Below are positions 5,479-47,296 of a stretch of 64,000 nucleotides of DNA, piece by piece. The translations under genes and the position numbers were made by a program. The notes below the pieces were generated by a model, which was not told where the DNA came from, ran no database searches, and worked only from the letters and a program-made list of their open reading frames with translations. The stretch's first letter is position 1; each line of letters starts with the position of its first letter. The DNA is taken from positions 92,755 to 156,754 of the forward strand of contig JAAXWS010000004.1 in NCBI GenBank assembly GCA_013334865.1, read 5' to 3'. The DNA comes from Chlorobiaceae bacterium (GTDB lineage Bacteria; Bacteroidota; Chlorobiia; Chlorobiales; Chlorobiaceae).

Positions 5479-7107
5479 TTATGCGACGTAGCTGGCTTCC
5501 AGGGCCTCGGCGCCTTCCTTTTCCCACGGCGCCTTGATGAGCTTCCATACCGGGTTGTTGACCATGCGGTCGATATCCTTGTAGAAGTTCACCGCACCTT
5601 CAAAGCCGGTGTAGGGGCCGCCGTAGTCGTAGCTGTGGAGCTGCTTGAGCGGCACGCCCATCTTCTGGACCACATACTTCTCCTTGATGCCGGCGCAGAA
5701 GATGTCGGGCTTGTAGAGTTCGATCAGCTTTTCGGACTCGTAGTGGCTGACGTCGTCGACGACCAGCGACTTTTTGACCATCTGCTTCATCATGCCCTCG
5801 TAGCCGTTGATCTCCAGGCCCTTGGCCTTCAGCTCTTCCAGTTCGGCTTCGCTCTTCCTCGGGTTGTAGAGTTCAGGGTCGGCCGTAATCTTCAGCTCCT
5901 CGATGTTCTTGCTGTCGGCGTCGATCTTGATGCTCGGAAGCACTTCGCGGCCTTCGTAGTCGTCGCGGTGCGCGAACTCGTATCCTGCGGCCACGGTCGT
6001 CATGCCGAGCTCCGTGAAGAGGTCCTGGTAGTGGTGGGCGCGCGAGCCTCCGACGAAGAGCATGGCGGTCTTGCCCTCGGTCCTCGGACGGATCTCGTCG
6101 ATGATCGCCTTCACCTTCGGCATCTCCTCGGCAATCACCTCTTCGACGCGTGCCTTGAGCCCTGCGTCGCCGAAGTATTCGGCGATCTTGCGCAGCGACT
6201 TGGCGCTCGATTCGGCGCCGACGAAGTTGACCTTCATCCATGGAATACCGTATTTGGTCTCCATCATGTCGCCCATGTAGTTGATCGAGCGGTGGCAGAG
6301 GATGACGTTCAGGTCAGCCATGTGCGAGTTTTCGATCGCGCCGACCGTCGAGTTGCCGCTGAACGAGGCGACCAGCGTGATGCCGCACTTTTCGAACAGT
6401 CGCTCGATTTCGAAGGCGTCGCCGCCGATGTTGTACTCGCCGAGCAGGTTCAGCTTGAACTTGCCTTCCACAGGCGCGTTGTTGTTGCCGACCATGTGCT
6501 TGAACACGCCGTTGTTGGCGATGTGGTGGCCCGCCGACTGGCTGACGCCGCGGTAGCCTTCGCAGCTGAATCCGAACACGTTGCAGTCGCCGAGTTTCTC
6601 CTTCATCTCCCTGGCGGCGGCGTGGACGTCGTCGCCGATCAGGCCGACCGGGCAGGTCGAGAAGATGGCGATGGCCTTCGGGTGGAAGAGGTCATAGGCC
6701 TCCTGGATCGCCTGCTTCAGCTTCTTTTCGCCGCCGAAGACCACGTTCTCCTCCTGCATATCCGTCGAAAAGCAGTAGGGGATGAAGTTTTCGTCGGTCG
6801 GGCTTTCCGGCCTGGTCTGGTTGCGGCGCGTCAGCCAGCTGTAGAAGCTGCAGCCGATCGGGCCGTGCGTGATGTTCACGATGTCGCGGGTCGGCCCGAG
6901 GACCACACCCTTGCATCCGGCGTAGGAACAGCCGCGCTGCGTGATGATGCCCGGCACGGTACGGACGTTCGCCTGGACTTCAGGGATCGTCTCCGGGTCG
7001 TTGATCACGATCGACTTGCTGCGCTTCTTGGCAACCTTGGCCGGATACTTGTTGATCAGTTCCTCCTTGATGAGGGATGGATCTGGTAAATGTATTTTCG
7101 CCTGCAT
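5479..7107 (-). CDS. nifD: Nitrogenase MoFe protein alpha subunit NifD
   Basis: NifD holds FeMo-cofactor and part of the P-cluster. P-cluster cysteines are at about 60 (QRGCSYAGC), 86 (HGPIGC) and 152 (STCPVGLIGDD). The cofactor Cys lies in NVILCHRSINYMGD and the cofactor His in QLHSYDYGGPYTG. At 542 aa it is longer than proteobacterial NifD (about 480-490). The extra length lies mainly around residues 370-430, the charged stretch with KSEAELEELKAKG. This matches the insertion known from clostridial-type NifD and fits the nifI-containing operon class. Confidence 0.97.
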   Translation of the reverse strand: MQAKIHLPDPSLIKEELINKYPAKVAKKRSKSIVINDPETIPEVQANVRTVPGIITQRGCSYAGCKGVVLGPTRDIVNITHGPIGCSFYSWLTRRNQTRPESPTDENFIPYCFSTDMQEENVVFGGEKKLKQAIQEAYDLFHPKAIAIFSTCPVGLIGDDVHAAAREMKEKLGDCNVFGFSCEGYRGVSQSAGHHIANNGVFKHMVGNNNAPVEGKFKLNLLGEYNIGGDAFEIERLFEKCGITLVASFSGNSTVGAIENSHMADLNVILCHRSINYMGDMMETKYGIPWMKVNFVGAESSAKSLRKIAEYFGDAGLKARVEEVIAEEMPKVKAIIDEIRPRTEGKTAMLFVGGSRAHHYQDLFTELGMTTVAAGYEFAHRDDYEGREVLPSIKIDADSKNIEELKITADPELYNPRKSEAELEELKAKGLEINGYEGMMKQMVKKSLVVDDVSHYESEKLIELYKPDIFCAGIKEKYVVQKMGVPLKQLHSYDYGGPYTGFEGAVNFYKDIDRMVNNPVWKLIKAPWEKEGAEALEASYVA

Positions 7108-7145
7108 TGTGCTTCTCTCCGTTTACACCTTGATTGTTTCTCTCC

Positions 7146-7523
7146 TTAGTTCAGCGCTTCGTTGCCTTCCTCGCCGGTCCTGACCCTGATCGTATCGAGG
7201 ATCGGTGTGACGAAGATCTTGCCGTCGCCGGGCTTGCCTGTCTGGTTGGTCCTGATGATCGTGTCTATCGCCAGTTGGCACAGATCATCGGGGACGACCA
7301 CGGTCAGGATCCTCTTGGCTACGAGCCTCGGGGCGTTGCCAAGCTGGGCTATCGCCTCGGGGTGGCCGGCTTCGGCGCCCTGGAGAATGTCGAAGTGAAC
7401 CTGGCCCTTGCCGCGCCCCATCACCCTTCCCGTTGCCGTGAAGGCGGGGATGCCGGCATCGATGAGCGCTTTCTTGGTTTCGTTCACCTTGTTGATCCGG
7501 ATGACTGAAATGATCTCTTTCAT
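7146..7523 (-). CDS. nifI2: NifI2, nitrogenase-specific PII protein
   Basis: This 125-aa GlnB-family protein starts MKEIISVIRINKVNETKKAL. The glycine-rich T-loop-side region GRVMGRGKGQVHFDIL and the C-terminal GDGKIFVTPILDTIRVRTGE are PII features. Together with NifI1 it mediates ammonium-dependent switch-off of nitrogenase by binding NifDK, controlled by 2-oxoglutarate and ATP, as established in methanogens. The start codon overlaps the nifI1 stop as TGATG, so the two are coupled. It lies upstream of nifD. Confidence 0.93.
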   Translation of the reverse strand: MKEIISVIRINKVNETKKALIDAGIPAFTATGRVMGRGKGQVHFDILQGAEAGHPEAIAQLGNAPRLVAKRILTVVVPDDLCQLAIDTIIRTNQTGKPGDGKIFVTPILDTIRVRTGEEGNEALN

Positions 7524-7873
7524 CAGGCCTCCTTCGCTGCCAGCAGCGTTTCGCTTTCCTTGGTTCCGGAGCTGATGGTGTAGACCTCCTCGACGGCCGA
7601 AACGAAGATCTTGCCGTCGCCGAACTTGCCGTCACCGGTTTTTGCATGGTCCAGAATGGCCCGGATCACGAAATCCTTGTCGGCGTCGGGAACCACGACG
7701 AAGAGCATCTCCTTCGGGAGCTCGTCATAGACCACGTCGCCCACCCGCAGGCCGCGCTGCTTGCCTCGTCCGACCACCGAAATCTTGGTGACGGCCGGGT
7801 ATCCTGCGTCGAGCAGCCCCTGCATGACCTCGTGTACTTTTTCGGGCCTGACGATTGTTCTGATCATTAACAT
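7523..7873 (-). CDS. nifI1: NifI1, nitrogenase-specific PII protein
   Basis: This 116-aa PII-family protein is the partner of NifI2 and lies next to nifH, the normal nifH-nifI1-nifI2-nifD order. Visible family features are MIRTIVRPEKVHEV, VVGRGKQRGL and GDGKFGDGKIFVSAVEEVYTISSG. ATG 7873 is preceded by AGGAG; a second ATG lies two codons in. A hairpin-rich 101-bp spacer separates it from nifH and could lower downstream expression relative to nifH. Confidence 0.93.
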   Translation of the reverse strand: MLMIRTIVRPEKVHEVMQGLLDAGYPAVTKISVVGRGKQRGLRVGDVVYDELPKEMLFVVVPDADKDFVIRAILDHAKTGDGKFGDGKIFVSAVEEVYTISSGTKESETLLAAKEA

Positions 7874-7917
7874 GTGTGTGTTCTCCTGTTTCTTGTTTTC
7901 TGTTTTACTTTGCCACA

Positions 7918-7971
7918 GCCCCGTAGGGGCGTCCTATGGGTAGCGCAGGGTGCCGCGGAGCAAACCCTGGG
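7918..7971. repeat. REP-like double hairpin in the nifH-nifI1 spacer
   Basis: Two palindromes lie back to back: GCCCCGTAGGGGC (7918-7930), and CAGGGT...ACCCTGG (arms about 7946-7951 and 7964-7970). They are joined by GTCCTATGGGTAG. I recall this composite as a dispersed repeat in many bacterial genomes. It ends only 3 bp from the nifH stop. On the nif mRNA it would form a strong 3' structure behind nifH. Confidence 0.65.
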
Positions 7972-7974
7972 CGG

Positions 7975-8811
<837 letters not shown>

Positions 8812-8884
8812 TTAAGTTATCGTGTTTGCTTTTGTGAAATATTCAGGATGGTAGTTTGGATAGCCTGAATAATTAAGGTAATAG

Positions 8885-8902
8885 TTGCAATTCTTGTGCC
8901 AA
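8885..8902 (-). promoter_or_regulatory. Sigma-54 promoter of the nif operon
   Basis: On the minus strand the sequence reads TTGGCAC-AAGAA-TTGCAA. This is a complete match to the sigma-54 consensus TGGCAC-N5-TTGCA, with the -24 GG at 8900-8899 and the -12 GC at 8888-8887. Predicted transcription starts near 8875, leaving a leader of about 75 nt before nifH. NifA, encoded 3.2 kb away, is the likely activator. I found no exact TGT-N10-ACA NifA site in the next 200 bp. Confidence 0.9.
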
Positions 8903-9465
8903 GATAAGGTGGTGGTGCAGGATTATTTTTCATTGTGACGGTGGTTCTGTGATAAATGACTGAATTGCATGGTGTTAAACGCGGTGATCAAAAAACTGAG
9001 GATTGGCAGACTGGGTTAACGGGTGGTGGTTTTGCCTTGATAATCCAGGAATTATCCTACAGAAGGGTAGGAAATGGTTTGTTTCTACCCTTCTGTAGGA
9101 TTTTGTCCTTCATGGCGTTCATTTCATTTCCATGAAACAGCGGATGTGGAGCCGGGTGTTTCGCATTTGCTCATGGTTTTCCGGAAGGGACGTGAGGGTT
9201 TTCATCGTCGTGGATTTTCCGGGAGCCGGAAAAGGCACAAAAATGTAGGAAATTGCGTAAGCTGGTTTTTTGCACAGGAACCGGACGGAACCTGATGTTG
9301 TTGCAAAGTAAAAGCCCGGCAGCTTGAAGATGTTGTGGCTGATAATGGTATGCCGTTCAAGGCGAGCTAGCCCGGGAACAAGCATTTCAGATGCATCGTT
9401 CGGGGCTATCATTGCCTGCCTGAACCCGTTGTTTACAGCTCATTTTGTCAACCAATCCGGATCTC
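8903..9465. other. Intergenic region between the nifH promoter and the pentad-repeat gene
   Basis: I see no convincing gene here. Short open frames on both strands (9074-9295 plus, 9119-9412 minus) lack ribosome-binding sites and family features. The notable element is the 17-bp-arm inverted repeat at 9054-9101. Confidence 0.6.
9054..9101. promoter_or_regulatory. Perfect 17-bp inverted repeat upstream of nifH
   Basis: The arm ATCCTACAGAAGGGTAG (9054-9070) is repeated exactly as its reverse complement at 9085-9101, with a 14-bp AT-rich centre. The right arm runs into TTTT on the plus strand. It lies about 150 bp upstream of the nifH -24 element, a normal distance for an upstream activator site. 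A terminator is the alternative, but no plus-strand gene precedes it. Confidence 0.6.
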
Positions 9466-9786
9466 ATGAGAATGCACAGACATCGTAGGGTTCCCGTAGG
9501 TGCTGAACGCTATCGGTATTCGGCGGCTCTTGCCGGTAATGCCGGTAAAGGAATGCGAACTGGTAAAGCTGTTACCGCGGTGGCCGTCGGAGCATTGGCC
9601 GCAGGGGCACTCGCTATCGGAGCCCTCTCAGTCGGGGCTTTGGCTATCGGGAAGATGGTCGTAGGTCGAATCCTTGTCAGGCTGGCACGGATAGGGAGGC
9701 TGGAGATAGAGTCGCTGCATATCGGGAGGATCGAGGTTGCCGAATCTCCGGAAATTTCCTCCTCAGGCAGGGTGTCGAAGCCTTGA
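9466..9786 (+). CDS. Small pentad-repeat protein, function unknown
   Basis: The protein is about 106 aa from ATG 9466; TTG 9445 would add seven residues. The N-terminus is basic (MRMHRHRRVPVGAERYRY). From about residue 40 it runs as roughly eleven 5-residue units such as ALAIG, ALSVG, KMVVG, RILVR, LARIG, RLEIE and SLHIG. Positions 2 and 4 are hydrophobic, and a small or charged residue sits at position 5. The first units are Ala/Gly-rich and could enter a membrane; later ones are amphipathic. Such a period suggests a narrow beta-helix. The gene stops 6 bp before the converging kinase gene. No ribosome-binding site is evident and I assign no function. Confidence 0.55.
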   Translation: MRMHRHRRVPVGAERYRYSAALAGNAGKGMRTGKAVTAVAVGALAAGALAIGALSVGALAIGKMVVGRILVRLARIGRLEIESLHIGRIEVAESPEISSSGRVSKP

Positions 9787-9792
9787 GCGACG

Positions 9793-11781
9793 TCATGCGT
9801 TCGTCGGACTCGGAACCCATCGCAGCATGAGTTCGGAAAGTGACTTGATCGTGATCGGTTTAGAGGTGTAGTCGTTCATTCCGGCTTCCATGCACCGCCG
9901 GCGATCCTCCTCCATCGCGTTTGCCGTCATGGCGACGATAGGGGTTTTCGGGTCGAGCACGCCCTCCCAGCCGCTCCTGATCCGAATGGTGGCTTCGATG
10001 CCGTCCATGATCGGCATTTGCAGATCCATGAAGACCAGTTCGTAGTGTTGCGTTTTCATGCGGTCGATGGCATCGGCGCCATTGCGGGCAATATCCACAT
10101 CGAAACCTATTTTCCTGATCATTGCCGATGCTACCAGCTGGCTGCTCTGGTTGTCTTCAACCAGGAGGATCCGTCCGGTCTGCTTTTCCGCGCCGGCCTG
10201 TATCTGGAGGTTTTCAGCATGATGCATCACGGCATCCTGTGTGTTTTCCGGTATGCCGAAATCGATCGTGAAGCTGAACGTCGATCCTTCACCGATAAGG
10301 CTTTTCAGCTCGATTCTTCCGCCCATGAAGTTGACAAGCTTCGAGGCGATGGAGAGCCCGAGGCCAGTGCCGCTGGTCAGTCTCGTATTATCCTGCCCGA
10401 TCCGGGTGAATCGCTGGAACACTATCTGCTGCTTTTCTTCAGGGATGCCGATGCCGGTGTCATGAACAGATAGCCGCACTCTCGAACGATCGTTTCCGAT
10501 ATCGACGGCTTCCGCAGAGATCGAGATTCCTCCGGACTCTGTATACTTGAGAGCGTTCTGGACCAGGTTGATAAGTACCTGACGCAGGTAGACCGGGTGT
10601 CCGGCGAGCAGGTTCGGAATCGACGGATCGATGGTTTCGTTGAGTTCCAGGCCTTTGCCTTCAGTGCTGTTGCGCATCATGTCATGCAGTTCCCGTATCA
10701 GGGCACGCAGGTCGAAGACATTCGTTGCTTCATCGAGGATTCCTGATTCGATCCTGCTGAAGTCGAGGATATTGCTGATCAGGTCGAGCAGCAGCTTTGC
10801 GCTGTTGTGCGCTGTTTCGGCAAAACATCTCGATTCGCGGTCAAGGTTTGCGGCCAGCAGAAGTTCGCACATCCCGATGACGGTGTTCAGGGGGGTCCTG
10901 ATTTCGTGCGACATGTTCGCGACGAATTCGCTCTTCGACCTGCTTGCGCTTTCGGACTGGCTTCTGGCTTGCTTGAGCTCGATGACCAGCTGCCGCAGTT
11001 CCTCCTCCTTTTCTTCGACAAGCCGTTTTTCCGAAACAAGTTTTTCGTTGAGCTGGCGAGCCTGCTCAAGCGCTTTTTCGGTTTCCTGCATCTGCATTTT
11101 TTCCTTGAGCAGGAGCTCCTTGATGTCTGCGTTGAGTACCGTGATGATGTCGTTCAGTTCATCGATGGGGCGTCCGCTCGAAACAGGAGTGTACGGTGGG
11201 GTCAATGCCTCCTGTTCGTACATGAGCTGTCCGCAACGGGCGGCGAAATCGTCCAGTTCAGTAATCGAAAGCCCCATTTTCTCCGGTGGCCCGGTTTCTG
11301 GGGATTTCAATTCGCTGTTCAGTGATTCGAAAGCCTGGGAAAGGTCATCGACGAAGATGAAGCGCTGCTTTACATAACGGGCGAAAAGGCGGAGCGTGAT
11401 TCTCAGCAGCGGCGAGGAGCCGCAGATAATGGTGATTTCCGGGAAAGCGTTGTTCGTCCTGTTCGCCCGGTTAAGGGCGTTGGCATAGTGGATTCTGGTC
11501 TGGAGGGCGGGCTGGATGACGTCGGAGTAGTCGGCGATTCTTACATATCTGCAACCTGCGAGGTTGCCGCTCATGAAGATTTCGGGTAACGTGGCCATTG
11601 CCCGTTCAACGTCTTCCTGCTGTGCCAGACCGCCGATCGAAGTGAAGAAAAGTCTCCCGGGGATGACGCCGCTGACATAACGGAAGCCGGTATCCGGATT
11701 TTCGATCCGCCATTCCGGTCGAAACTTGATCCGGTCATAGCTGAAAAGATTATTGGGATCCGCATGCTTCGGAAGAACCAT
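9793..11781 (-). CDS. Hybrid sensor histidine kinase with C-terminal receiver
   Basis: A 662-aa cytosolic kinase with no membrane segments. Residues 1 to about 165 form a globular N-terminal domain I cannot name. About 215-280 is a long coiled coil, rich in Glu, Lys and Gln. HisKA follows with phosphoacceptor His 292 ([10 protein letters not shown]). The HATPase has [15 protein letters not shown] and GTGLGLSIA. The receiver starts about 537 (RILLVEDN), with phospho-Asp in [12 protein letters not shown]. It lies between nifH and nifA but has its own start, so a role in nitrogen regulation is only positional inference. Phosphate may pass intramolecularly to the receiver; no Hpt or separate output protein is adjacent. 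Confidence 0.9.
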
Positions 11782-11988
11782 ATGGTAACTGTGAAAATGT
11801 TTCGATCTTCTGGAGCAGCCTGACTAGCCTGCCCGGTGTCGATGTGCCATGGTTACGCCATGTCCTGCCAATATTTTATATGTATTTCCGAAAGATAGTA
11901 AAAGGAAGGTATATATACATTTTTTTTGTGTGTGCCCCGTTCGGCGCCGTGTGCGGGGTGGGGTGGGCGCCGAATCCGTCGGGCGCAA

Positions 11989-13617
11989 TCAGGATCGGAA
12001 CTTGCGGTAGTCGACGTTGAATTTTTTCATCCTCAGGCCCATGATCCTGTCGGAAAGGCCGAGTTGGGCCGCTGCCCGGGACATGTTACCCTTGGTGCGC
12101 TTCAGGGCCTCGATGATCATCTCCTTCTCGATGGCATCGAGTTTCTGCTGGAGCGATCCCGTGTAGGGCGTTCCGCTCGATTCTGCTGTCTGGAGCGACG
12201 GAGGGAGGTGGTAGCCGTGGATCACGTTGTCCTCGCTCAGGATAACCGCCCGCTCGATGCAGTTCTGCAACTCCCTCACGTTGCCGGGCCAGTGGTAGCG
12301 CATGAGCATGTCGATGGCCGTCGTGGAGATGCGCCGTACTCCCTTGTGGTTCAGTGAGTTGAACTTCTCGATGAAATAGTCGGCCAGCAGCATGATGTCG
12401 GTCTTCCTCTCTCGAAGCGGCGGAACGGTGATCGGGAAGATGTTCAGCCGGTAGTAGAGGTCTTCGCGGAACGCACCTTCGCGGATCTGATCCTCGAGGT
12501 TCCGGTTGGTGGCCGCGATGATGCGTACATCCGTCTTGATCGTCCTGGTGCCTCCGAGCCGTTCGAACTCCTTTTCCTGGATGATCCTCAACAGCTTGGC
12601 CTGTATCGCAATGCTCAGCTCGCCGACCTCGTCGAGGAAGATGGTGCCGCCGTCGGCAAGCTCGAAACGGCCCCTGCGCTGCGCTGCGGCTCCGGTGAAA
12701 GCTCCCCGCTCGTGGCCGAAGAGCTCGCTTTCGACGATGTTTTCGGGGAGTGCCGCACAGTTGAACTTGATGAACGACTTTCCGGCCCTGTGGCTTTTGA
12801 AGTGGATGGCGTTGGCGACAAGCTCCTTGCCTACGCCGCTTTCACCCAGGATCAGCGCCGTCGCATTGGTTCGGGAGATCTTGTCGATCATCCTGAAGAG
12901 CGAGAGTACGGGCTTGGTGTTGCCTATGATGTTGGCCGGCCTTTCGGTGTCTTCGAGTTCCCCGTCGAGCTCTTCCTCATCCGGGTGGAGGGCGACGGGG
13001 GCGGGGAGGCCGGCAGGAGTTTTCACGTTTGCCTGCTTTCCCTCGGCGGCGAGCTGCTTGAGCCTGACCGCCTGGGAGATCATGGCCGCGATGATCGACA
13101 GCAGGTCGACAAAGTACTGGAGGGTGTCCTTCCTGGCCTCCTCGACCTTGCTCCGTTTTGAGTTCCCCGATTCGGAAGGGGCCGATAGCCTGCGGTCAGC
13201 GCTCAGGGTGCCGATCACCTCGACGCCTGCCTTGATGGGTACGCAGATGAAGCAGAGCTCCTCTTTCTTCTCCCTGGATCGGGAGCCGGTCCTGTCGAGG
13301 AACAGCGGCTCCTCGTTGATCCTGGGGACGATGGCCGGCTTTCCGCTCTTCACCACCTTGCCGATGATCCCCTCGCCGATCCGGTAGCGTCCCCTCTGGC
13401 TTTCCGTTTCGGTCAGTCCGAACGATTCGTTGATGACGATTTCGCTGGTGTCCCGGTTCAGGATCGTGATCATGCCCCGAAGCATGTTCATGTGCTCCGA
13501 CAGGATGAACAGTACAAGCCGGAGGACCTTGCTGATGTCCTCTTCGTTGTTGACCGTCCTGCTCACTTCCGCGAGAAGGCTGATGCTGCTGTGTTCCTGC
13601 TGGTTGGTGATGAGCAT
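11989..13617 (-). CDS. nifA: NifA, sigma-54-dependent activator of nif genes
   Basis: The 542-aa protein has an N-terminal GAF domain (about 20-190), a linker, and an AAA+ sigma-54 activation domain (about 228-460). The AAA+ domain shows Walker A GESGVGKE (258-265), the sigma-54 contact loop GAFTGA (305-310) and Walker B GTIFLDE. A Fis-type helix-turn-helix forms the last 40 residues (NMSRAAAQLGLS). It starts 6 bp after nifV, so nifV-nifA form an operon. The linker lacks the paired cysteines of oxygen-sensitive alphaproteobacterial NifA, so redox control probably differs. Confidence 0.93.
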   Translation of the reverse strand: MLITNQQEHSSISLLAEVSRTVNNEEDISKVLRLVLFILSEHMNMLRGMITILNRDTSEIVINESFGLTETESQRGRYRIGEGIIGKVVKSGKPAIVPRINEEPLFLDRTGSRSREKKEELCFICVPIKAGVEVIGTLSADRRLSAPSESGNSKRSKVEEARKDTLQYFVDLLSIIAAMISQAVRLKQLAAEGKQANVKTPAGLPAPVALHPDEEELDGELEDTERPANIIGNTKPVLSLFRMIDKISRTNATALILGESGVGKELVANAIHFKSHRAGKSFIKFNCAALPENIVESELFGHERGAFTGAAAQRRGRFELADGGTIFLDEVGELSIAIQAKLLRIIQEKEFERLGGTRTIKTDVRIIAATNRNLEDQIREGAFREDLYYRLNIFPITVPPLRERKTDIMLLADYFIEKFNSLNHKGVRRISTTAIDMLMRYHWPGNVRELQNCIERAVILSEDNVIHGYHLPPSLQTAESSGTPYTGSLQQKLDAIEKEMIIEALKRTKGNMSRAAAQLGLSDRIMGLRMKKFNVDYRKFRS

Positions 13618-13623
13618 GACTGC

Positions 13624-14793
13624 TTAAGCTGATTGATTGCGTGTCTGGCGATATTGCCGGTGGATCTCGTCCAGCTCTTCCGCGCAAAGGGCGCGCTTCC
13701 GGCTCCCTGCCGCTTTCCGGACCAGTTCAAGCATGCCGAAGGCCTCCTCCCTCGTCAGCTGGACCCCCCGTTTCCGGAAATGTTCACTGATGGCGGCCGA
13801 TCCGGAATGCTTGCCGATCACCATTTCGAAGCTTTTCCTGCCGACCGTGGAGGGGAGGAACGGCTGGTAGGAGAGCGGCTCCTGCAGCAATGCGGCGCAG
13901 TGTATTCCAGATTCGTGCTCGAACGCCGATTTCCCGACGACCGGCTTCTGCTCCTGGATCGGCCGGCCTGATGCCGCCGAGACCGCTTCGCAGAGCACGG
14001 CGAGCATGGTCGTATCGAGCCTGCAGGCGGTTCCGTCATCAAGGGCGAGCGCCATGGCGAGCTCTTCGAGGGCGGCGTTTCCGGCCCGTTCCCCTAGGCC
14101 GGTCACCGAAACGCTCACGGCCTGGCATCCGGCCTTGAGGGCCGTGAAGGCATTGGCCGTGGCCATGCCCAGGTCGTTATGCGCATGGAACTCGAGGGGG
14201 AGTGTGGTACGGGAACGAAGGCCGGAGACCATCTCGACGATCGAAAGCGGCGTCGCCACGCCGACGGTATCCGCGATCCTTATCCGGTCTGCTCCTGCCG
14301 CTTCGGCATCTTCAACGAATCGTTCCAGGAGCGTTCTTTCCGCCCTGGTGGCATCCTGGCCGCCGACGCTCACGAATCTGAACAGGCTGCGGGCATGGCC
14401 GATCAGTTCATGCAGCTGAGCGCGGACCCATTCGTACTCCCTCTTCATGAGCCTGAGGTAGAGGGGAGAGATCGGGAAACTGATATGCACCGCCTCGGTG
14501 CCGCATGAAGCCGCAAGCTCGATATCGCTACGGTTTGCTCTCGACCAGGAGGTGAGCCTGGCGGGAAGGCCCATCGAGACGATCTCCCTTATTGCCTCGC
14601 GCTCCGAAGGACCGATGGCAGGGTAGCCCACCTCGATCTCATCGATCCCGGTCTCTGCGAGCAACCGCGCGATATGCCTTTTTTCATGATGGCTGAAGAC
14701 CACGCCGGGGGCCTGCTCCCCATCCCTGAGGGTCGTATCGATGATCCATGGGCCTGCAGAGGGCCCGGTAGGGATGTTTGCGCCGGGAGGCAT
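13624..14793 (-). CDS. nifV: Homocitrate synthase NifV
   Basis: NifV condenses acetyl-CoA and 2-oxoglutarate to homocitrate, the organic ligand of FeMo-cofactor. The 389-aa protein has the DRE-TIM signature DTTLRDGEQAPGV (18-30), the metal-binding HAHNDLGMA and the GLGERAGNA loop. ATG 14793 is the only good start; AAGGAACG lies about 25 nt upstream, rather far for a ribosome-binding site. Pairing with nifA supports nifV over isopropylmalate synthase, as does the length (LeuA is near 500 aa). Confidence 0.92.
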   Translation of the reverse strand: MPPGANIPTGPSAGPWIIDTTLRDGEQAPGVVFSHHEKRHIARLLAETGIDEIEVGYPAIGPSEREAIREIVSMGLPARLTSWSRANRSDIELAASCGTEAVHISFPISPLYLRLMKREYEWVRAQLHELIGHARSLFRFVSVGGQDATRAERTLLERFVEDAEAAGADRIRIADTVGVATPLSIVEMVSGLRSRTTLPLEFHAHNDLGMATANAFTALKAGCQAVSVSVTGLGERAGNAALEELAMALALDDGTACRLDTTMLAVLCEAVSAASGRPIQEQKPVVGKSAFEHESGIHCAALLQEPLSYQPFLPSTVGRKSFEMVIGKHSGSAAISEHFRKRGVQLTREEAFGMLELVRKAAGSRKRALCAEELDEIHRQYRQTRNQSA

Positions 14794-32088: not shown

Positions 32089-33132
32089 ATGTCCGAAACC
32101 AGATATTTCATGCCCCCGGAATGGGCGCCGCACAGCTCGACCTGGCTCTCCTGGCCGCACAAGCTCGAGTCCTGGCCTGGCAAATTCGAGCCTGTGCCGG
32201 CCGTGTTCGCCGAGCTCGCCTTCCAGCTCAGCCGTTCCGAGAATGTCAACATCAACGTCCTCGACGAAGCGATGGAGGCCGAGGCCCGGGCGCTGCTGAA
32301 AGAGAGGGATCCTGAAGGGCGATTCTCGAGCCGGGTGCATTTCCACCGGATCCGCACCAACGACGCCTGGTGCCGCGACCATGGCCCGAACTACGTTTTC
32401 CGTGATCTGGACGGCTGTCGCGACAGGGTGATCCTCGACTGGGATTACAACGCCTGGGGCGGCAAGTATGAGCCCTACGACGACGACGATGCCGTACCTG
32501 CAAGGGTTGCCGAAATCCAGGGGCTGCCCCGCATCGCACCCGGCATGGTGCTTGAAGGCGGGGCTATCGACGTCAACGGCAACGGGCTGCTGCTGACCAC
32601 CGAGGCCTGCCTGCTGAACCCGAACCGCAACCCTTCGCTGAGCCGGGAGGAGATCGAGGAGCGGCTCGGCAGGTATCTTGGCATCCGGAAGGTGCTCTGG
32701 CTCGGCGACGGTATCGTCGGGGACGACACTGATGGCCATGTCGACGACATGACCCGCTTCGTCGGCGAATCGACCGTGGTGACAGTCGTTGAGGAGGATC
32801 CTTCGGATGAAAACTACGAACTGCTCCAGGAGAACCTTCACCGGCTGGAGGGATTCACCGGCCTTGACGGACGCCCGCTCGAGATCGTGCACCTGCCCAT
32901 GCCCGAGCCGGTTTTCTACGACGGCGAGCGCCTGCCGGCCAGCTACGCCAACTTCTACATTGCCAACACCTCAGTGCTCGTACCCACCTACCGCTGCCCG
33001 CGTGACCGACAGGCCATCGATGTGCTGCAGCGGTGCTTCCCCGGCCGGGAGGTCGTCGGCATCGACTGCAGCGACCTTATCTGGGGCCTGGGCGCCATCC
33101 ACTGCGTTACGCATGAGGAGCCGGCGCTGTAG
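32089..33132 (+). CDS. aguA: Agmatine deiminase
   Basis: AguA converts agmatine to N-carbamoylputrescine. The 347-aa guanidine-modifying enzyme shows WCRDHGPNYV, DDTDGHVDDMTRF, and the nucleophile Cys near the end (GLGAIHCVTHEEP). AAGGAG lies 8 nt before ATG 32089. It ends the plus-strand operon; the next 945 bp have no protein gene. Confidence 0.96.
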   Translation: MSETRYFMPPEWAPHSSTWLSWPHKLESWPGKFEPVPAVFAELAFQLSRSENVNINVLDEAMEAEARALLKERDPEGRFSSRVHFHRIRTNDAWCRDHGPNYVFRDLDGCRDRVILDWDYNAWGGKYEPYDDDDAVPARVAEIQGLPRIAPGMVLEGGAIDVNGNGLLLTTEACLLNPNRNPSLSREEIEERLGRYLGIRKVLWLGDGIVGDDTDGHVDDMTRFVGESTVVTVVEEDPSDENYELLQENLHRLEGFTGLDGRPLEIVHLPMPEPVFYDGERLPASYANFYIANTSVLVPTYRCPRDRQAIDVLQRCFPGREVVGIDCSDLIWGLGAIHCVTHEEPAL

Positions 33133-33139
33133 CCGCTCT

Positions 33140-33178
33140 TGTCTCATATTTGTTGAAAATATGTCTCATGTTGAGGCA
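33140..33178. promoter_or_regulatory. TGTCTCA half-sites upstream of RNA unit 1
   Basis: TGTCTCA occurs at 33140-33146 and 33162-33168. The second copy is followed after 3 bp by TGAGGCA (33172-33178), forming an imperfect palindrome. They lie about 140-180 bp upstream of the sigma-54-like element of the first RNA unit. The same heptamer occurs twice upstream of the second unit, so an activator site is likely. Confidence 0.4.
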
Positions 33179-33319
33179 AATTTTCTCAAAAACGGGACAC
33201 TTGTCTAAGCTTGATATGAAGCTTTGGGCCGTCTCATGCTTTCCTATGATTTCTGGAAAATATTTATAAGTGATTCTATAATAATCGAATAGCGTGGCTC
33301 CGGGAAGATGTTCTTTGTT

Positions 33320-33336
33320 ATGGCACGCTTCTTGTA
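33320..33336 (+). promoter_or_regulatory. Sigma-54-like promoter of RNA unit 1
   Basis: ATGGCACGCTTCTTGTA matches TGGCAC-N5-TTGCA except for T in place of C in the -12 GC. Fourteen bases (TGGCAYGCTTCTTG) are shared with the second unit at 33755 although the flanks differ. The predicted start, about 12 nt downstream, coincides with the first base of the RNA's closing stem (33347). A weak sigma-70 reading with 15-bp spacing is the alternative. Confidence 0.5.
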
Positions 33337-33346
33337 TTACTATTTT

Positions 33347-33574
33347 CGGTCTGCACAGGAAAGTTTCGCGAAAGCGAGGCGGGCCAGGTGAAATGGGGGA
33401 CACCTGGCTTTTTCCTGCAGGCCGATATGTTATGCCGAAGCCTTCTCTGGCGACGGAAAACAGATGGATTAGGGGCCCCAAGGGCTCAGACAGAGATGCC
33501 TCACGAAAGTGAGGTGGGGCAGGTGAAATGGGGGACACCTGTCCGCAAAAAAAGCAGCGAAAGCTGCTTTTTTT
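33347..33574 (+). ncRNA. Structured RNA unit 1 (Chlorobi-1-like 3' half)
   Basis: Part A (33347-33424, 78 nt): a long closing stem, CGGTCTGCA-CA-GGAAA with TTTCCTGCAGGCCG, encloses a small GAAA-loop hairpin and a hairpin GGCCAGGTG/CACCTGGC with loop AAATGGGGGA. Part B has a hairpin CCTCAC-GAAA-GTGAGG (33499-33514), a second GGTG/CACC hairpin with the identical loop (33517-33544), and an intrinsic terminator GCAGC-GAAA-GCTGC-T7 (33547-33574). Two stem-loops plus terminator is how I remember the published Chlorobi-1 RNA motif. No ORF with coding character lies here. Parts A and B could be one 228-nt transcript or separate RNAs. Confidence 0.7.
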
Positions 33575-33617
33575 GTTTTCCTGCTGAGATCCACTCCGTT
33601 ATCAGGGTGATACGTTG

Positions 33618-33644
33618 TGTCTCAATGTGGATGGCTTTGTCTCA
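33618..33644. promoter_or_regulatory. TGTCTCA half-sites upstream of RNA unit 2
   Basis: TGTCTCA occurs at 33618-33624 and 33638-33644, 20 bp apart, against 22 bp upstream of unit 1. They are about 110-135 bp upstream of the second sigma-54-like promoter, a usual enhancer distance. Confidence 0.4.
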
Positions 33645-33753
33645 CGTTCTGGTACCAGGACGCCTCATGATGTTTACCCGGATGTGGGGCGTTATCCTGA
33701 TATCTTGTTTATTTACAATTGATCGGCGGGCTTGTTGTTGTTTGTCTGTGGTG

Positions 33754-33770
33754 TTGGCATGCTTCTTGAC
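33754..33770 (+). promoter_or_regulatory. Sigma-54-like promoter of RNA unit 2
   Basis: TTGGCATGCTTCTTGAC keeps the -24 TTGGCA and the TTG of the -12 box. The spacing to the RNA (13 bp from TTG to the closing stem) is identical to unit 1. The base after TTG departs from the consensus C, as in unit 1. Confidence 0.5.
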
Positions 33771-33780
33771 AGAATATTAT

Positions 33781-34049
33781 TGGTCTGCACAGGATGGCTT
33801 CGCGAAAGCGGGCAGGTCGGGTGAAATGGGGGACACCCGACCTTTATCCTGCAGGCCACTTCGTGTGATGAGGTGTGTTGCAGTGTGTGCATAGACGTGG
33901 TTATGGTTATGATTCGATGAAGATCCGGGGCCCCGATGTCAAGAGCGGCACGTGATTGATCAGAGATGCAAGGAGTTCCGCGCAAGCGGAGCGGACAGGT
34001 GAAATGGGGGACACCTGTTCAACAAAAAAGCGGCTCAGGCCGCTTTTTT
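33781..34049 (+). ncRNA. Structured RNA unit 2, paralogue of unit 1
   Basis: Part A' (33781-33858, again 78 nt): the closing stem TGGTCTGCA-CA-GGAT with ATCCTGCAGGCCA encloses CGC-GAAA-GCG and a hairpin GGTCGGGTG/CACCCGACC with loop AAATGGGGGA. Part B' has TCCGC-GCAA-GCGGA (33977-33990), GGACAGGTG/CACCTGTTC with the same loop (33993-34020), and the terminator GCGGC-TCAG-GCCGC-T6. Stem sequences differ from unit 1 while pairing is kept; the ten loop bases are invariant in all four hairpins. GGGGCCCC and CAGAGATGC in the A-B linker are also shared with unit 1. Confidence 0.7.
34024..34049. terminator. Bidirectional terminator of RNA unit 2 and mdh
   Basis: A6-GCGGC-TCAG-GCCGC-T6 reads as an intrinsic terminator on both strands. 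It ends RNA unit 2 on the plus strand and lies 28 bp past the mdh stop on the minus strand. Confidence 0.85.
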
Positions 34050-34077
34050 GTTGTTATGTCGTTCCGTTCTGTGACGG

Positions 34078-35073
<996 letters not shown>

Positions 35074-44217: not shown

Positions 44218-44455
44218 AATGATTCTCCTTTTTCTGGTGGCGTTTAAAATGGTATTATCAGGAAAAACACACGGTTGCTTCCTGTTAAATAACAGCTTGT
44301 AACAAATTTAAAGAATAAATATTAATAAATAAAGAAATTTTGCCTCTTTCCGGTCCTCTGCACGACCTTCGTCATACCCATCCGGGGATGTCTGGAGGGG
44401 TGCCGGAAAGTCATCCCGGAAGCCGTTTTACTCCCGGCCAGAACCCTGCCCCGAC

Positions 44456-46069
44456 ATGAACCGGACATCTTTTCCTGCATCTCTTCAGCGCATCGTCTTG
44501 CCCCTCATGAGCGGGATCCTCCTCGGCATCTCGTTCCCTACCTGGCCCTCCGTGCACCTCGAGCCACTGGCCTGGGTCGCCCTGGTGCCGTTCCTGCTTA
44601 CTGCCGGGCATGACGAACCCTTCGCGCCATATTTCAGGAAAGCCTGGCTGGCGACCCTCGCCTTCTGCGTCATCTCCCTCTGGTGGGTCTGCCTGGCAAC
44701 CCTGACCGGCGGCCTCCTGACCATCTTTGTCCAGTCGCTGTTCTCGACCGTCCCGTTCACCCTATTCTACCTTTTCAGGCGCCGGGCCGGCTACCGCTTC
44801 GCCCTGTTCTCGCTACCCTTCCTCTGGACCGGCTGGGAGTGGGCCTACATGCAGCAGGACCTTTCGCTCGGGTGGCTGACCCTCGGCAACTCGCAGGCGA
44901 ACCTGCTCTGGATGGTCCAGTATGCCGATGTCACCGGGGTATGGGGAGTCAGCTTCTGGGTTGTGGCGTTCAACGTGCTTGCGGTGCAACTCGTGCGCGA
45001 GCGGGAGCGCTTCGGAACAGCAGTCCGCATAGCCGTGGCCATGGCGGCCATGGTGGCCGCGCCGCTCGGCTATGCGTGGCATGCCTTCAGCGGGGCCGCA
45101 GGGCAGGATGGGGTGCGCACCGTGAAGGTGGCCCTGGTGCAGCCTGACATCGATCCGCATGAAAAGTGGGGAGGGCTCGGTGCAGACGAGACGATGTCGA
45201 GGCTGTTACGCCTGACCGGCAGGAGCCTCGTGACCGACCGGGCCGACCTGGTGGTGTGGCCCGAAACGGCCATCCCGTTCTACATCCGCGATCCGGAGAA
45301 CGGGGTCTACATGAGAGCCGTCAGGCGTTCGCTGGAACAATGGAAAACCCCGCTCCTGACCGGCTTCCCGGACGCCGAGCGCCAGCCGCGCGCCCTCGCC
45401 TCGAGGGATGCCGAAGCTGCCGTCCCGGACGCCTCCTCCGGCCGTCCCTTCGCAGCCTACAACGCGTCGATGCTCCTGCATCCGGGAGAAGACGGGTTGC
45501 AGATCTACCGCAAGATGCGGCTCGTCCCGTTCGGCGAGCGGGTCCCCTACTCGGAATACCTGCCTTGGCTCGAGCGCATGAGCTTCTCGATGTCGGGGAT
45601 CACCAGCTGGCAGCAGGGGCGGGAGGCTACGGTCATGACGGTTCGCCGTTCCGGCGGGGATTCGTTCCGGATCGCCAACATCATCTGCTACGAATCCATA
45701 TTTCCCGATCTGGTCTCCCGGTTCGTGTCTGGCGGGGCGCAGCTGGTCACGCTGGTGACCAATGACGGCTGGTACGGTACCTCCTACGGGCCGTGGCAGC
45801 ATGCGGCCATCGGCAGGCTGCGCTGCATCGAGAACCGCCGGGCGATGGTCCGCTGCGCGAATACCGGCGTGACGCTTGCCTACGACCGATTCGGACGGAC
45901 CATTGCGGAGATCCCCTGGTGGCAGGGCGCCGTGCTCGTCACCGAGGTGCCCCTCGAAGAGGGCCTGACCTTCTACACGAAATACCCGGACCTCTTTCCG
46001 AAAGCGTGCCTCGGGATCGGGGGATTGCTGGCGGTGGCGGGAGTTTTACGGAGGAGAAAGGTTTTGTAA
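44456..46069 (+). CDS. lnt: Apolipoprotein N-acyltransferase
   Basis: Lnt adds the third acyl chain to the N-terminal Cys of outer-membrane lipoproteins. The 537-aa protein has about six N-terminal membrane segments (to about residue 210), then a periplasmic nitrilase domain. The triad is Glu in VVWPETAIPFY, Lys in IYRKMRLVPFGERVPY, and Cys in NIICYESIFPD. A last membrane segment lies near the C-terminus. It is consistent with the lipoproteins seen elsewhere in the window. Confidence 0.95.
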   Translation: MNRTSFPASLQRIVLPLMSGILLGISFPTWPSVHLEPLAWVALVPFLLTAGHDEPFAPYFRKAWLATLAFCVISLWWVCLATLTGGLLTIFVQSLFSTVPFTLFYLFRRRAGYRFALFSLPFLWTGWEWAYMQQDLSLGWLTLGNSQANLLWMVQYADVTGVWGVSFWVVAFNVLAVQLVRERERFGTAVRIAVAMAAMVAAPLGYAWHAFSGAAGQDGVRTVKVALVQPDIDPHEKWGGLGADETMSRLLRLTGRSLVTDRADLVVWPETAIPFYIRDPENGVYMRAVRRSLEQWKTPLLTGFPDAERQPRALASRDAEAAVPDASSGRPFAAYNASMLLHPGEDGLQIYRKMRLVPFGERVPYSEYLPWLERMSFSMSGITSWQQGREATVMTVRRSGGDSFRIANIICYESIFPDLVSRFVSGGAQLVTLVTNDGWYGTSYGPWQHAAIGRLRCIENRRAMVRCANTGVTLAYDRFGRTIAEIPWWQGAVLVTEVPLEEGLTFYTKYPDLFPKACLGIGGLLAVAGVLRRRKVL

Positions 46070-46070
46070 G

Positions 46071-46168
46071 AAGGGACCTCAAGGACAGCAGGGAATTCAG
46101 GGACAACTGTGTTAAAGAGGTGCTTTTTTGTCCTTGGTGTCCTTTACGTCCCTGTTGTCCTTTTCTTA
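46071..46168. repeat. Inverted 9-bp-period repeats between lnt and the sigma-54 activator
   Basis: AAGGACAGCAGGGA (46081-46094) pairs with TCCCTGTTGTCCTT (46149-46162) with one mismatch. Both sides consist of GTCC(C/T)T-type nonamers. The right copy includes the stop codon of the activator gene. The structure probably ends both convergent transcripts. Confidence 0.6.
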
Positions 46169-47296
46169 TAAACCGTACTCCTTGATCTTGCGGTACAATG
46201 TCCGCTCGTTGATGCCCAGCGCATGTGCCGTCTTCCTCTTGTTTCCTCCGAATTTTGTCAAAGTGACGGCGATGGTGCGCTTTTCGAGCTCTTCAAGGGG
46301 CAGGGTCGGCTCAGCGGCCGGGGAAGGGGGGCTTTGCGTCATGGGCTCGGTCACCTGCGGTTCCGGCAGAAGGAGCTGCGGGGATTGCAGCCGGTTCGTG
46401 AGCAGCAGCTGCTGGAGCAACTGCCTGATCTCGCCCATCTCCTGCCTGAGCTGGATGAGGCTGCCGTAGATGAGGCTCAGCTCATTGCTCTCCGTCCTTG
46501 CCGGGTCGTGGACCAGGCTCTTGTGCCGGCTGCGCTGCACGAGGTGCCTTTCGAGGATGTCCGGGGTGACCTGGCGGCCCCGTTCCAGGATCAGCAGCGA
46601 CTCGACCAGGTTCCTCAGCTCCCGGACGTTGCCGGGCCACGGATAGCGCAGCAGCAGCTCGGTCGCTTCGGGGTTGAAGCCTTCGAAGGCGATGGAGTGC
46701 TTGCGTTCGAAGCCATGGATGAAATGTTCGGCGAGCAGCAGGATGTCGCCCCCTCGCTCCCGTAACGGCGGGATCTGGAGCTCCACGCTGCGCAGGCGGT
46801 AATAGAGGTCTTCGCGGAAATTGCCCTCGGCCACCGCCTGATGGAGGTTCCTGTTGGTCGCCGCGACGATACGGGTGTCGGTACAGACCGTTTCTGACGC
46901 TCCGACCCGCTGGAACTCTCCCGCCTCGATGACCCGCAGGAGCTTGACCTGGGTCTCCAGGGGCGTCTCACCGATCTCGTCGAGGAAGATCGTGCCCCGG
47001 TCCGCACTTTCGAAATAGCCTTTCCTTGCCTGGATGGCGCCAGTGAAAGCACCCCTCTCGTGGCCGAAAAGCTCCGACTCGAGGATGCCGGACGGGATCG
47101 CACCGCAGTTGACCGGGATGAAGCTCTTCGACGCCCGGCGGCTGTGTTCGTGGATGAATCGCGCCAGCACCTCCTTGCCCGACCCGGTCTCCCCGGTGAT
47201 GAGCACCGTGACGTCGGCCGACGCGACCTGCAGGGCGAGCTCCTTGAGCCGGAGGATGCCCGGGGATCTGCCGAGAATGTCGAATCCCCGGTTCAT
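46166..47296 (-). CDS. Sigma-54-dependent activator without sensory domain
   Basis: The 376-aa protein starts almost directly with the AAA+ domain: Walker A GETGSGKE (about 36-43), HERGAFTGA with the sigma-54 contact loop, GTIFLDE, and the arginine-finger region. A linker with a Gln/Leu-rich helix follows (about 270-305). A Fis-type HTH ends the protein (KRKTAHALGINERTLYRKIKEYGL). No receiver, GAF or PAS domain precedes it, as in PspF, so an external partner may control it. It lies 34 bp after the SPOR-domain gene. It is a candidate activator for the sigma-54-like RNA promoters, by inference only. Confidence 0.9.
   Translation of the reverse strand: MNRGFDILGRSPGILRLKELALQVASADVTVLITGETGSGKEVLARFIHEHSRRASKSFIPVNCGAIPSGILESELFGHERGAFTGAIQARKGYFESADRGTIFLDEIGETPLETQVKLLRVIEAGEFQRVGASETVCTDTRIVAATNRNLHQAVAEGNFREDLYYRLRSVELQIPPLRERGGDILLLAEHFIHGFERKHSIAFEGFNPEATELLLRYPWPGNVRELRNLVESLLILERGRQVTPDILERHLVQRSRHKSLVHDPARTESNELSLIYGSLIQLRQEMGEIRQLLQQLLLTNRLQSPQLLLPEPQVTEPMTQSPPSPAAEPTLPLEELEKRTIAVTLTKFGGNKRKTAHALGINERTLYRKIKEYGL

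Follow-up and report, generated by a model that had tools for sequence, protein, structure and literature searches.

In the window, by which we mean the whole 64,000-nucleotide stretch of DNA analysed here, a tandem array of Chlorobi-1-type structured RNA units lies between an aguA-like gene and mdh; it is predicted to be transcribed from sigma-54 promoters as two RNAs. The reading that we prefer, at a probability of about 0.45, is that two tandem Chlorobi-1 RNAs are driven by sigma-54, with likely enhancers upstream and a terminator at the end of each, and that both RNAs show the heptamer UGGGGGA twice, likely capturing an RNA-binding partner. What the sequence itself shows is four homologous cores of P2 and P3 with invariant loops, a terminator hairpin after two of them, and boxes of the -24/-12 type whose position ahead of the units is much the same across the Chlorobiaceae.

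The earlier note had described four hairpins with an invariant loop, AAATGGGGGA, in the aguA-mdh spacer, in the order A-B-A'-B', each A being exactly 78 nt long and each B consisting of two stem-loops followed by a terminator. All of this was recovered: every copy was located at exact positions (Table 1), both A units (A1 and A2) have that length, and B1 and B2 fit the description by structure. The loop-bearing stems, of 9-10 bp each, differ in their letters among the four copies. The aguA-like ORF matches NCBIfam NF010070 (E 2.7e-91) and TIGR03380 (E 1.2e-86), in both cases under the curated cut-off. A generic terminator scan did not list the B1 and B2 terminator hairpins, probably because the stem drawn by the scan swallows the A/U run. 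The predicted transcripts fold at z -8.2 (33347-33576) and z -4.7 (33781-34050), and none of 200 shuffles was as low in either case. A palindrome, GGGGCCCC, stands upstream of B1 (33472-33479) and again upstream of B2 (33927-33934); it could pair with the G-rich loop or with itself.

Table 1. Features of the aguA-mdh spacer and the sigma-54-related features discussed in the text (window positions unless a contig is given)
Feature	Position	Strand	Remarks
aguA-like gene, agmatine deiminase family	32089..33132	+	Upstream neighbour, same strand as the RNAs
TGTCTCA half-site before A1	33140..33146	+	Motif enrichment
Dyad TGTCTCATGTTGAGGCA before A1	33162..33178	+	Enhancer-like
Sigma-54-type -24/-12 box TGGCACGCTTCTTGTA	33321..33336	+	Score 13.5/15.5, shuffle p 0.01; -12 C is T
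A1 unit, 78 nt	33347..33424	+	Chlorobi-1 paralog closed by outer stem P1
A1 helices	P1 33346-33355 with 33416-33425; P2 33363-33380; P3 33381-33410		Loop 33391-33400
B1, Chlorobi-1 RNA	33493..33559	+	P2 33497-33516, P3 33517-33544, loop 33526-33535
B1 intrinsic terminator, hairpin and U-run	33545..33576	+	Assigned by structure
TGTCTCA half-site before A2	33618..33624	+	Motif enrichment
TGTCTCA half-site before A2	33638..33644	+	Motif enrichment
Sigma-54-type box TGGCATGCTTCTTGAC	33755..33770	+	Score 12.5/15.5, shuffle p 0.075 alone; -12 C is A
A2 unit, 78 nt	33781..33858	+	Chlorobi-1 paralog closed by P1
A2 helices	P1 33781-33789 with 33850-33858; P2 33799-33812; P3 33814-33843		Loop 33824-33833
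B2, Chlorobi-1 RNA	33970..34035	+	P2 33975-33992, P3 33993-34020, loop 34002-34011
B2 intrinsic terminator, hairpin and U-run	34021..34052	+	Assigned by structure
Loop copies AAATGGGGGA	33391-33400, 33526-33535, 33824-33833, 34002-34011	+	Sequence match
mdh, malate dehydrogenase	34078..35010	-	Convergent neighbour; TIGR01763 above cut-off
Perfect sigma-54 box	8886..8901	-	About 87 nt upstream of nifH (7975-8799); C30:101640-101655
NifA-type activator	11989-13617		TIGR01817 just below cut-off
Receiver-less sigma-54 activator	46166-47296	-	Only AAA+ and Fis HTH domains; lnt and an ispE-like ORF close by
Candidate receiver-type activator (response regulator)	G000 contig 26, 166768-168207		Adjoins csmH

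The proposal that the B part is Chlorobi-1 RNA was borne out by the Rfam model RF01696, which scores B1 at 64.2 and B2 at 57.5 bits, both over the gathering score of 50. The A part, which had been taken for a linked element not described before, matches the same model in the search of one genome, at 32.3 bits for A1 (E 3.8e-7) and 28.3 bits for A2 (E 8.7e-6), below the gathering score, and has an outer stem, P1, in addition. We therefore class the A units as homologous Chlorobi-1 paralogs under the family cut-off and do not call them members. Since A and B match one covariance model, the four units are considered, on sequence evidence, to share one ancestry, each having a capped P2 followed directly by P3 with its G-rich loop. 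Genome-wide, the same search gave a fifth copy on another contig (41.7 bits) and five more rows at 11-14 bits. In the main text of the discovery paper (Weinberg et al. 2010, PMC2864571) the name Chlorobi-1 occurs once, in a table whose row reads "Y n n, Chlorobi", so that this part of the paper gives no promoter, array or locus, and a search of the literature naming Chlorobi-1 or RF01696 found nothing further. Among the titles and abstract openings listed for sigma-54 together with green sulfur bacteria or chlorosomes, or for C. tepidum, the RNA is unreported. A 2025 survey of sigma-54 mentions Chlorobiia once, for nitrogen fixation, and does not contain the terms "small RNA" or "sRNA".

Among 394 genomes drawn from the phylum, 63 have an RF01696 match at E <=0.01 and 37 have one over the family cut-off; matches of at least 24 bits are confined to the window's own order. 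Eleven genomes outside the order have weaker matches, three of which were examined (L076, L077, L080), the weak matches of G032 and G106 being left out. The weak matches L076-L079 proved to be CRISPR repeats of the type CCCCACGCCCGTGGGG and were dropped, as were L080, which is without the loop, and three Chlorobium matches that are apparently coding (L044, L089, L097). Among named genomes, 29 stretches contain the exact core pattern, under the titles Chlorobi, Chlorobiota, Chlorobiaceae, Chlorobium or Pelodictyon. The arrangement aguA-array-mdh, with the units on the aguA strand, was found at 25 of the 55 loci checked, the other 30 being second loci, deeper relatives or loci cut by a contig end, such as L057. 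Arrays hold one to four units, with a repeat period of 226 nt in L082 and 234 nt in L090; the tandem duplication, which the earlier note had also thought undescribed, is common at this locus in relatives. Each of six array-bearing genomes of the genus has a second Chlorobi-1-like copy elsewhere (L081, L051, L054, L058, L062, L064), with the loop GTGGGGGAA and without a sigma-54 box. A third type of copy, likewise without the box, occurs in Chlorobium (L056, L085, L087), two of these copies (L056, L085) lying near what reads, from the ORFs, as a umuC gene.

The core is conserved. Of 95 matches of at least 27.7 bits, 83 were checked, and 82 of them keep TGGGGG (78 as TGGGGGA), a count to be taken as an upper view because the covariance model favours the consensus; the sole exception is on contig 1 of G264. 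The loop pattern served to remove 9 false candidates out of 106 before the promoter and pairing tests. Over 92 distinct units, which were chosen for TGGGGG, 88% of the P3 cells are paired; sliding the partner by 1-2 columns lowers this share to 27-46%. The stems vary with their pairing kept and the loop constant, in relatives as in the window. P2 is capped mainly by GAAA, GCAA, GCCA or GCCC-type loops.

Why should such a loop be kept? We favour capture of a partner because the loop has outlived changes of promoter type, of neighbourhood and of stem letters, its sequence being unchanged in other families. Two familiar RNA-binding proteins, CsrA (PF02599) and Hfq (PF17209), gave no match at E up to 1 in this genome, which is 98% complete, and a CsrA sponge of the CsrB/RsmZ type and an Hfq-dependent antisense RNA were rejected on these grounds. 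Mimicry of a Shine-Dalgarno sequence was set aside as well, the loop pairing with a typical anti-SD tail at -8.4 kcal/mol and a full SD at -16.5, and a link to RRM proteins was dropped since the two Chlorobi-RRM leaders of the same genome lack UGGGGGA. These leaders (RF01697; L101, L102) precede genes for RRM-like proteins. For rRNA, considered as another partner, a motif scan gave no match in the sequences scanned. Should the partner be a protein, the loop would lead to a post-transcriptional regulator in a genome that gave no match to CsrA or Hfq.

A tentative alternative, almost as likely as partner capture, keeps the same sigma-54 sibling RNAs and makes UGGGGGA an antisense seed for C-rich mRNA segments (UCCCCCA), as in Qrr. 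The loop has the look of a seed, being short, exposed and constant while the stems vary, and its full complement pairs with it at -15.5 kcal/mol; the sigma-54-dependent sRNAs Qrr and Pxr are described as post-transcriptional or developmental regulators. Against it, TCCCCCA occurs at 1 of 376 gene starts in a 464-kb sample of this genome (rank 38 among 42 heptamers of the same composition) and at 3 of 341 starts in a 400-kb Chlorobium sample (rank 16 of 42), in a weak test whose starts were guessed and which a small regulon would escape; no Hfq was found either. A broad antisense seed was rejected, the loop complement not being enriched at gene starts in this small test.

In both readings, partner capture and seed, the RNAs would come from sigma-54-type promoters. 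Units were scored with the sigma-54 consensus TGGCAYR-N4-TTGCW over the 60 nt upstream of P2, with weights set after the pattern had been seen. The 97 units were grouped by hand into 61 promoter-bearing units of Chlorobiaceae, 10 of B type, 6 at second loci, 3 at the umuC locus and 16 from deeper relatives, one more being too near a contig end; both L050 units were set by hand as B-type, although one has a partial box (11.5). In the promoter-bearing group 60 of 61 units reach at least 12.5 of 15.5, L048 being the exception, compared with none of the B-type, second-locus and umuC-locus units and 1 of the 16 deeper ones (3 of 16 in a wider, 90-nt scan); as background, two 400-kb samples were drawn on for 6000 random 60-nt windows each, and 2.0% of these windows reach the score in either sample. 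The -12 element of the 60 boxes is TTGC (33), TTGT (21), TTGA (4), GTGC (1) or CTGC (1), with GC at -13/-12 in 35 of them. The two boxes of the window are themselves degenerate at this place, with TTGT (GT) and TTGA (GA), and the A2 box is not significant alone. Counting from -12, the predicted starts are 33347 and 33781, that is, the first base of each 78-nt A unit, which agrees with the two transcription units, with two loops each, that the earlier note had started near 33346 and 33780. As B1 and B2 have no box of their own, A and B of each pair are predicted to be transcribed together, the two RNAs being about 230 and 270 nt long.

The genome encodes one RpoN. A sigma-54 box is expected upstream of nifH, and the perfect one found there (Table 1) may serve as a positive control for boxes of this kind in the genome. 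A stricter pattern, TGGCAYNNNNNTTGCW, has 4 matches genome-wide, the nifH box among them, against 2 for its reversed control. Another perfect box (L140; G000 contig 31, 77365-77380, minus strand) precedes, by about 100 nt, ORFs whose reading suggests a small heat-shock protein and DnaK. The nifH gene belongs to a nif cluster on the minus strand of the window (5479-14793) with nifD, nifH, a nifA-type regulator and nifV.

It is improbable that these are ordinary Chlorobi-1 copies read by the housekeeping sigma factor, their likeness to -24/-12 elements being incidental. A permissive TTG..TAnnnT-type pattern does stand upstream of 12 of 16 deeper units, a count made without a control, sigma-54 boxes are rare in those units, and the spacer from box to start is often A+T-rich. 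However, 60 of the 61 promoter-bearing units have the box at a distance of 15-30 nt ahead of P2, with the TTGC counted above, and internal B copies do not have it; moreover, the only sigma-70-like match on the plus strand of the spacer is at 33254-33282, with 2 on both strands against 0.9 expected.

Enhancer-like motifs were counted in the regions upstream of 61 boxes, namely the 60 of the promoter-bearing group and that of one deeper unit. The most enriched heptamer is TGTCTCA: with its complement TGAGACA it occurs 42 times in 13.1 kb upstream of the 61 boxes, or 3.2 per kb, against 0.020 per kb in this genome and 0.033 in one Chlorobium (400-kb samples), more than 90-fold denser, an enrichment that is descriptive, the loci being related and the motif having been found in the same data. 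It is present in 23 of the 61 regions, and 37 of the 42 copies lie 100-200 nt before the -12 element. In the 64 kb of the window the motif occurs only four times, A1 and A2 each having two of these copies upstream. These sites are likely enhancers for the promoters of the array. The dyad before A1 is the only match in the genome to TGTCTCAN{2,5}TGAGRC (TGTCTCA-N-TGAGRC); the terminator scan, however, lists it too, as a terminator-like hairpin 30 nt downstream of aguA, so that its role might instead be to end transcription of that gene. In two Chlorobium copies at another locus the box is accompanied by TGATTCA/TTGAATC, noticed by eye, in place of TGTCTCA. A sigma-54-type promoter together with a likely private enhancer would say how a Chlorobi-1 RNA is switched.

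Five sigma-54 activators are encoded in the genome, two of them within the window. We infer that the best candidate for the array is the response regulator encoded next to csmH. It has orthologs, at 69-80% identity, in all five other array-bearing genomes of the genus, whereas the best match in the 15 genus genomes without the array (3 of them under 90% complete) does not exceed 47%. In a tree of NifA covering 20 of the 21 genus genomes, the six array-bearing genomes form one side of a branch (99), so that this match counts as one event and not six. Relatives of the regulator at 53-60% identity occur in Prosthecochloris and Chlorobium among the best 120 matches; the relative in an array-bearing Chlorobium sample (L174), at 55%, has no csmH beside it. 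An ortholog of NifA is present in 21 of 21 genus genomes, whether or not they carry the array; its distribution therefore does not follow that of the array, although NifA may still be the activator. The L136 type of activator was rejected: of the 21 genomes, 11 encode one at 60% identity or more, six of these lack the array, and array-bearing G153 has none. Array-bearing genomes encode a mean of 6.5 activators (32 genomes) and those without the array 4.7 (39), a comparison that ignores kinship and in which array status was read by hand, G102, with a umuC-locus copy only, being counted as without. Promoter and likely enhancer together leave these five activators as a short list for testing and would make a regulated circuit of an unknown conserved RNA. 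Elsewhere in the window, an Lnt RNA (RF01711, 72.9 bits; 44259-44318, plus strand) lies upstream of the lnt gene (44456-46069), the placement that the family name predicts.

The gene csmH encodes chlorosome envelope protein H (NCBIfam TIGR03058; L232 and L227) and lies directly upstream of the candidate activator in all six genomes, as judged by a shared repeat and by reading. In two Chlorobium genomes, an extra sigma-54-type Chlorobi-1 copy stands about 320 nt upstream of a small gene (L084, L088). The small protein of L084, the only copy searched, has close matches named chlorosome envelope protein B by some sources, passes the Pfam cut-off for Phasin_2 marginally and matches nothing in NCBIfam. 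These two neighbourhoods, one of an activator with csmH and one of a csmB-like gene, make the chlorosome link a lead, not proof. A light-harvesting circuit can be drawn from it, doubtful as it is, in which the csmH-linked regulator would act on sigma-54 at TGTCTCA and the multi-loop RNAs would be decoys titrating a putative UGGGGGA-binding protein, thereby setting chlorosome output; if true, it would run in bacteria without CsrA or Hfq.

The outer stem P1 has 10 pairs in A1 and 9 in A2. A units beginning with GGTCTG were found in four relatives (L053, L057, L061, L063), and in the first A unit of each a terminator hairpin lies inside a P1-like helix, after P3 and before the 3' strand of that helix; this hairpin is missing from both A1 and A2. 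As the hairpin is kept in these relatives, the linkage of A to B looks like the result of the loss of the A terminator hairpin and not like a separate element. Because TTTTT comes immediately after its P3, A1 might itself terminate. Of 13 distinct units from deeper relatives in the order, 10 have at least 5 outer pairs immediately flanking P2 and P3 and 6 have at least 6, the corresponding shares among 156 mismatched flank pairs being 26% and 12%; the letters of these helices differ from unit to unit, so that it is the pairing that is kept and not the sequence. For the outer stem of Chlorobium units, values below 0.05 are only scattered (L021, L085, L086), as expected from the number of tests. 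The outer stem would correct the Chlorobi-1 family model and helps to recognise deeper relatives. That the inverted ends of the A units, GGTCTGCA..TGCAGGCC, are instead the terminal repeats of a small mobile element is hardly credible, even though an inverted repeat of 7-13 bp flanks A units in five genomes (that of the window and the four relatives), for the A units of this genome are found only in the aguA-mdh spacer, the repeat begins at the predicted transcription start, and deeper relatives have the outer stem in the same place with other letters.

For the two sigma-54-driven RNAs that we prefer, the following course of events may be proposed. A two-component signal would switch an NtrC-type activator, which would bind TGTCTCA 100-200 bp upstream and open the complex of RpoN with RNA polymerase. 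The terminator of A would have been lost in this genome, so that A and B are made as one RNA, and the additional copies would give a higher dosage and more loops on each transcript. The loops might then titrate one conserved partner, more probably a protein than many mRNAs; this last step is the least certain.

Decoys such as CsrB/RsmZ and CrcZ carry several identical exposed sites per RNA, by which they titrate an RNA-binding protein, and the array would work like them, with the difference that its loop is UGGGGGA, where the CsrA-type motif is A(N)GGA, and that the genome has no CsrA or Hfq match. With the Chlorobi-1 family itself, B1 and B2 share P2, P3, the loop and the terminator, and P1 is the part that the RF01696 model does not have. 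The Pxr RNA of myxobacteria, in the portion of PMC5568312 drawn on here, resembles the array in being a multi-stem-loop sRNA with an apparent sigma-54 promoter and a fixed intergenic locus, with tandem paralogs in Cystobacter; it is taken to have a different sequence, adjoins the gene of a sigma-54 response regulator and acts in development. The Qrr sRNAs of Vibrio are distal genes in 4-5 copies, according to a table of PMC4211561, and no kinship of sequence or structure with the array is claimed. As the relevant part of PMC10162802 describes them, under LuxO/SypG, they have sigma-54 promoters, upstream enhancer sites for the activator and sibling copies, much as is proposed for the array, and the SypG site given there, TTCTCANNNTGMDWN, resembles TGTCTCA-N3-TGAGACA.
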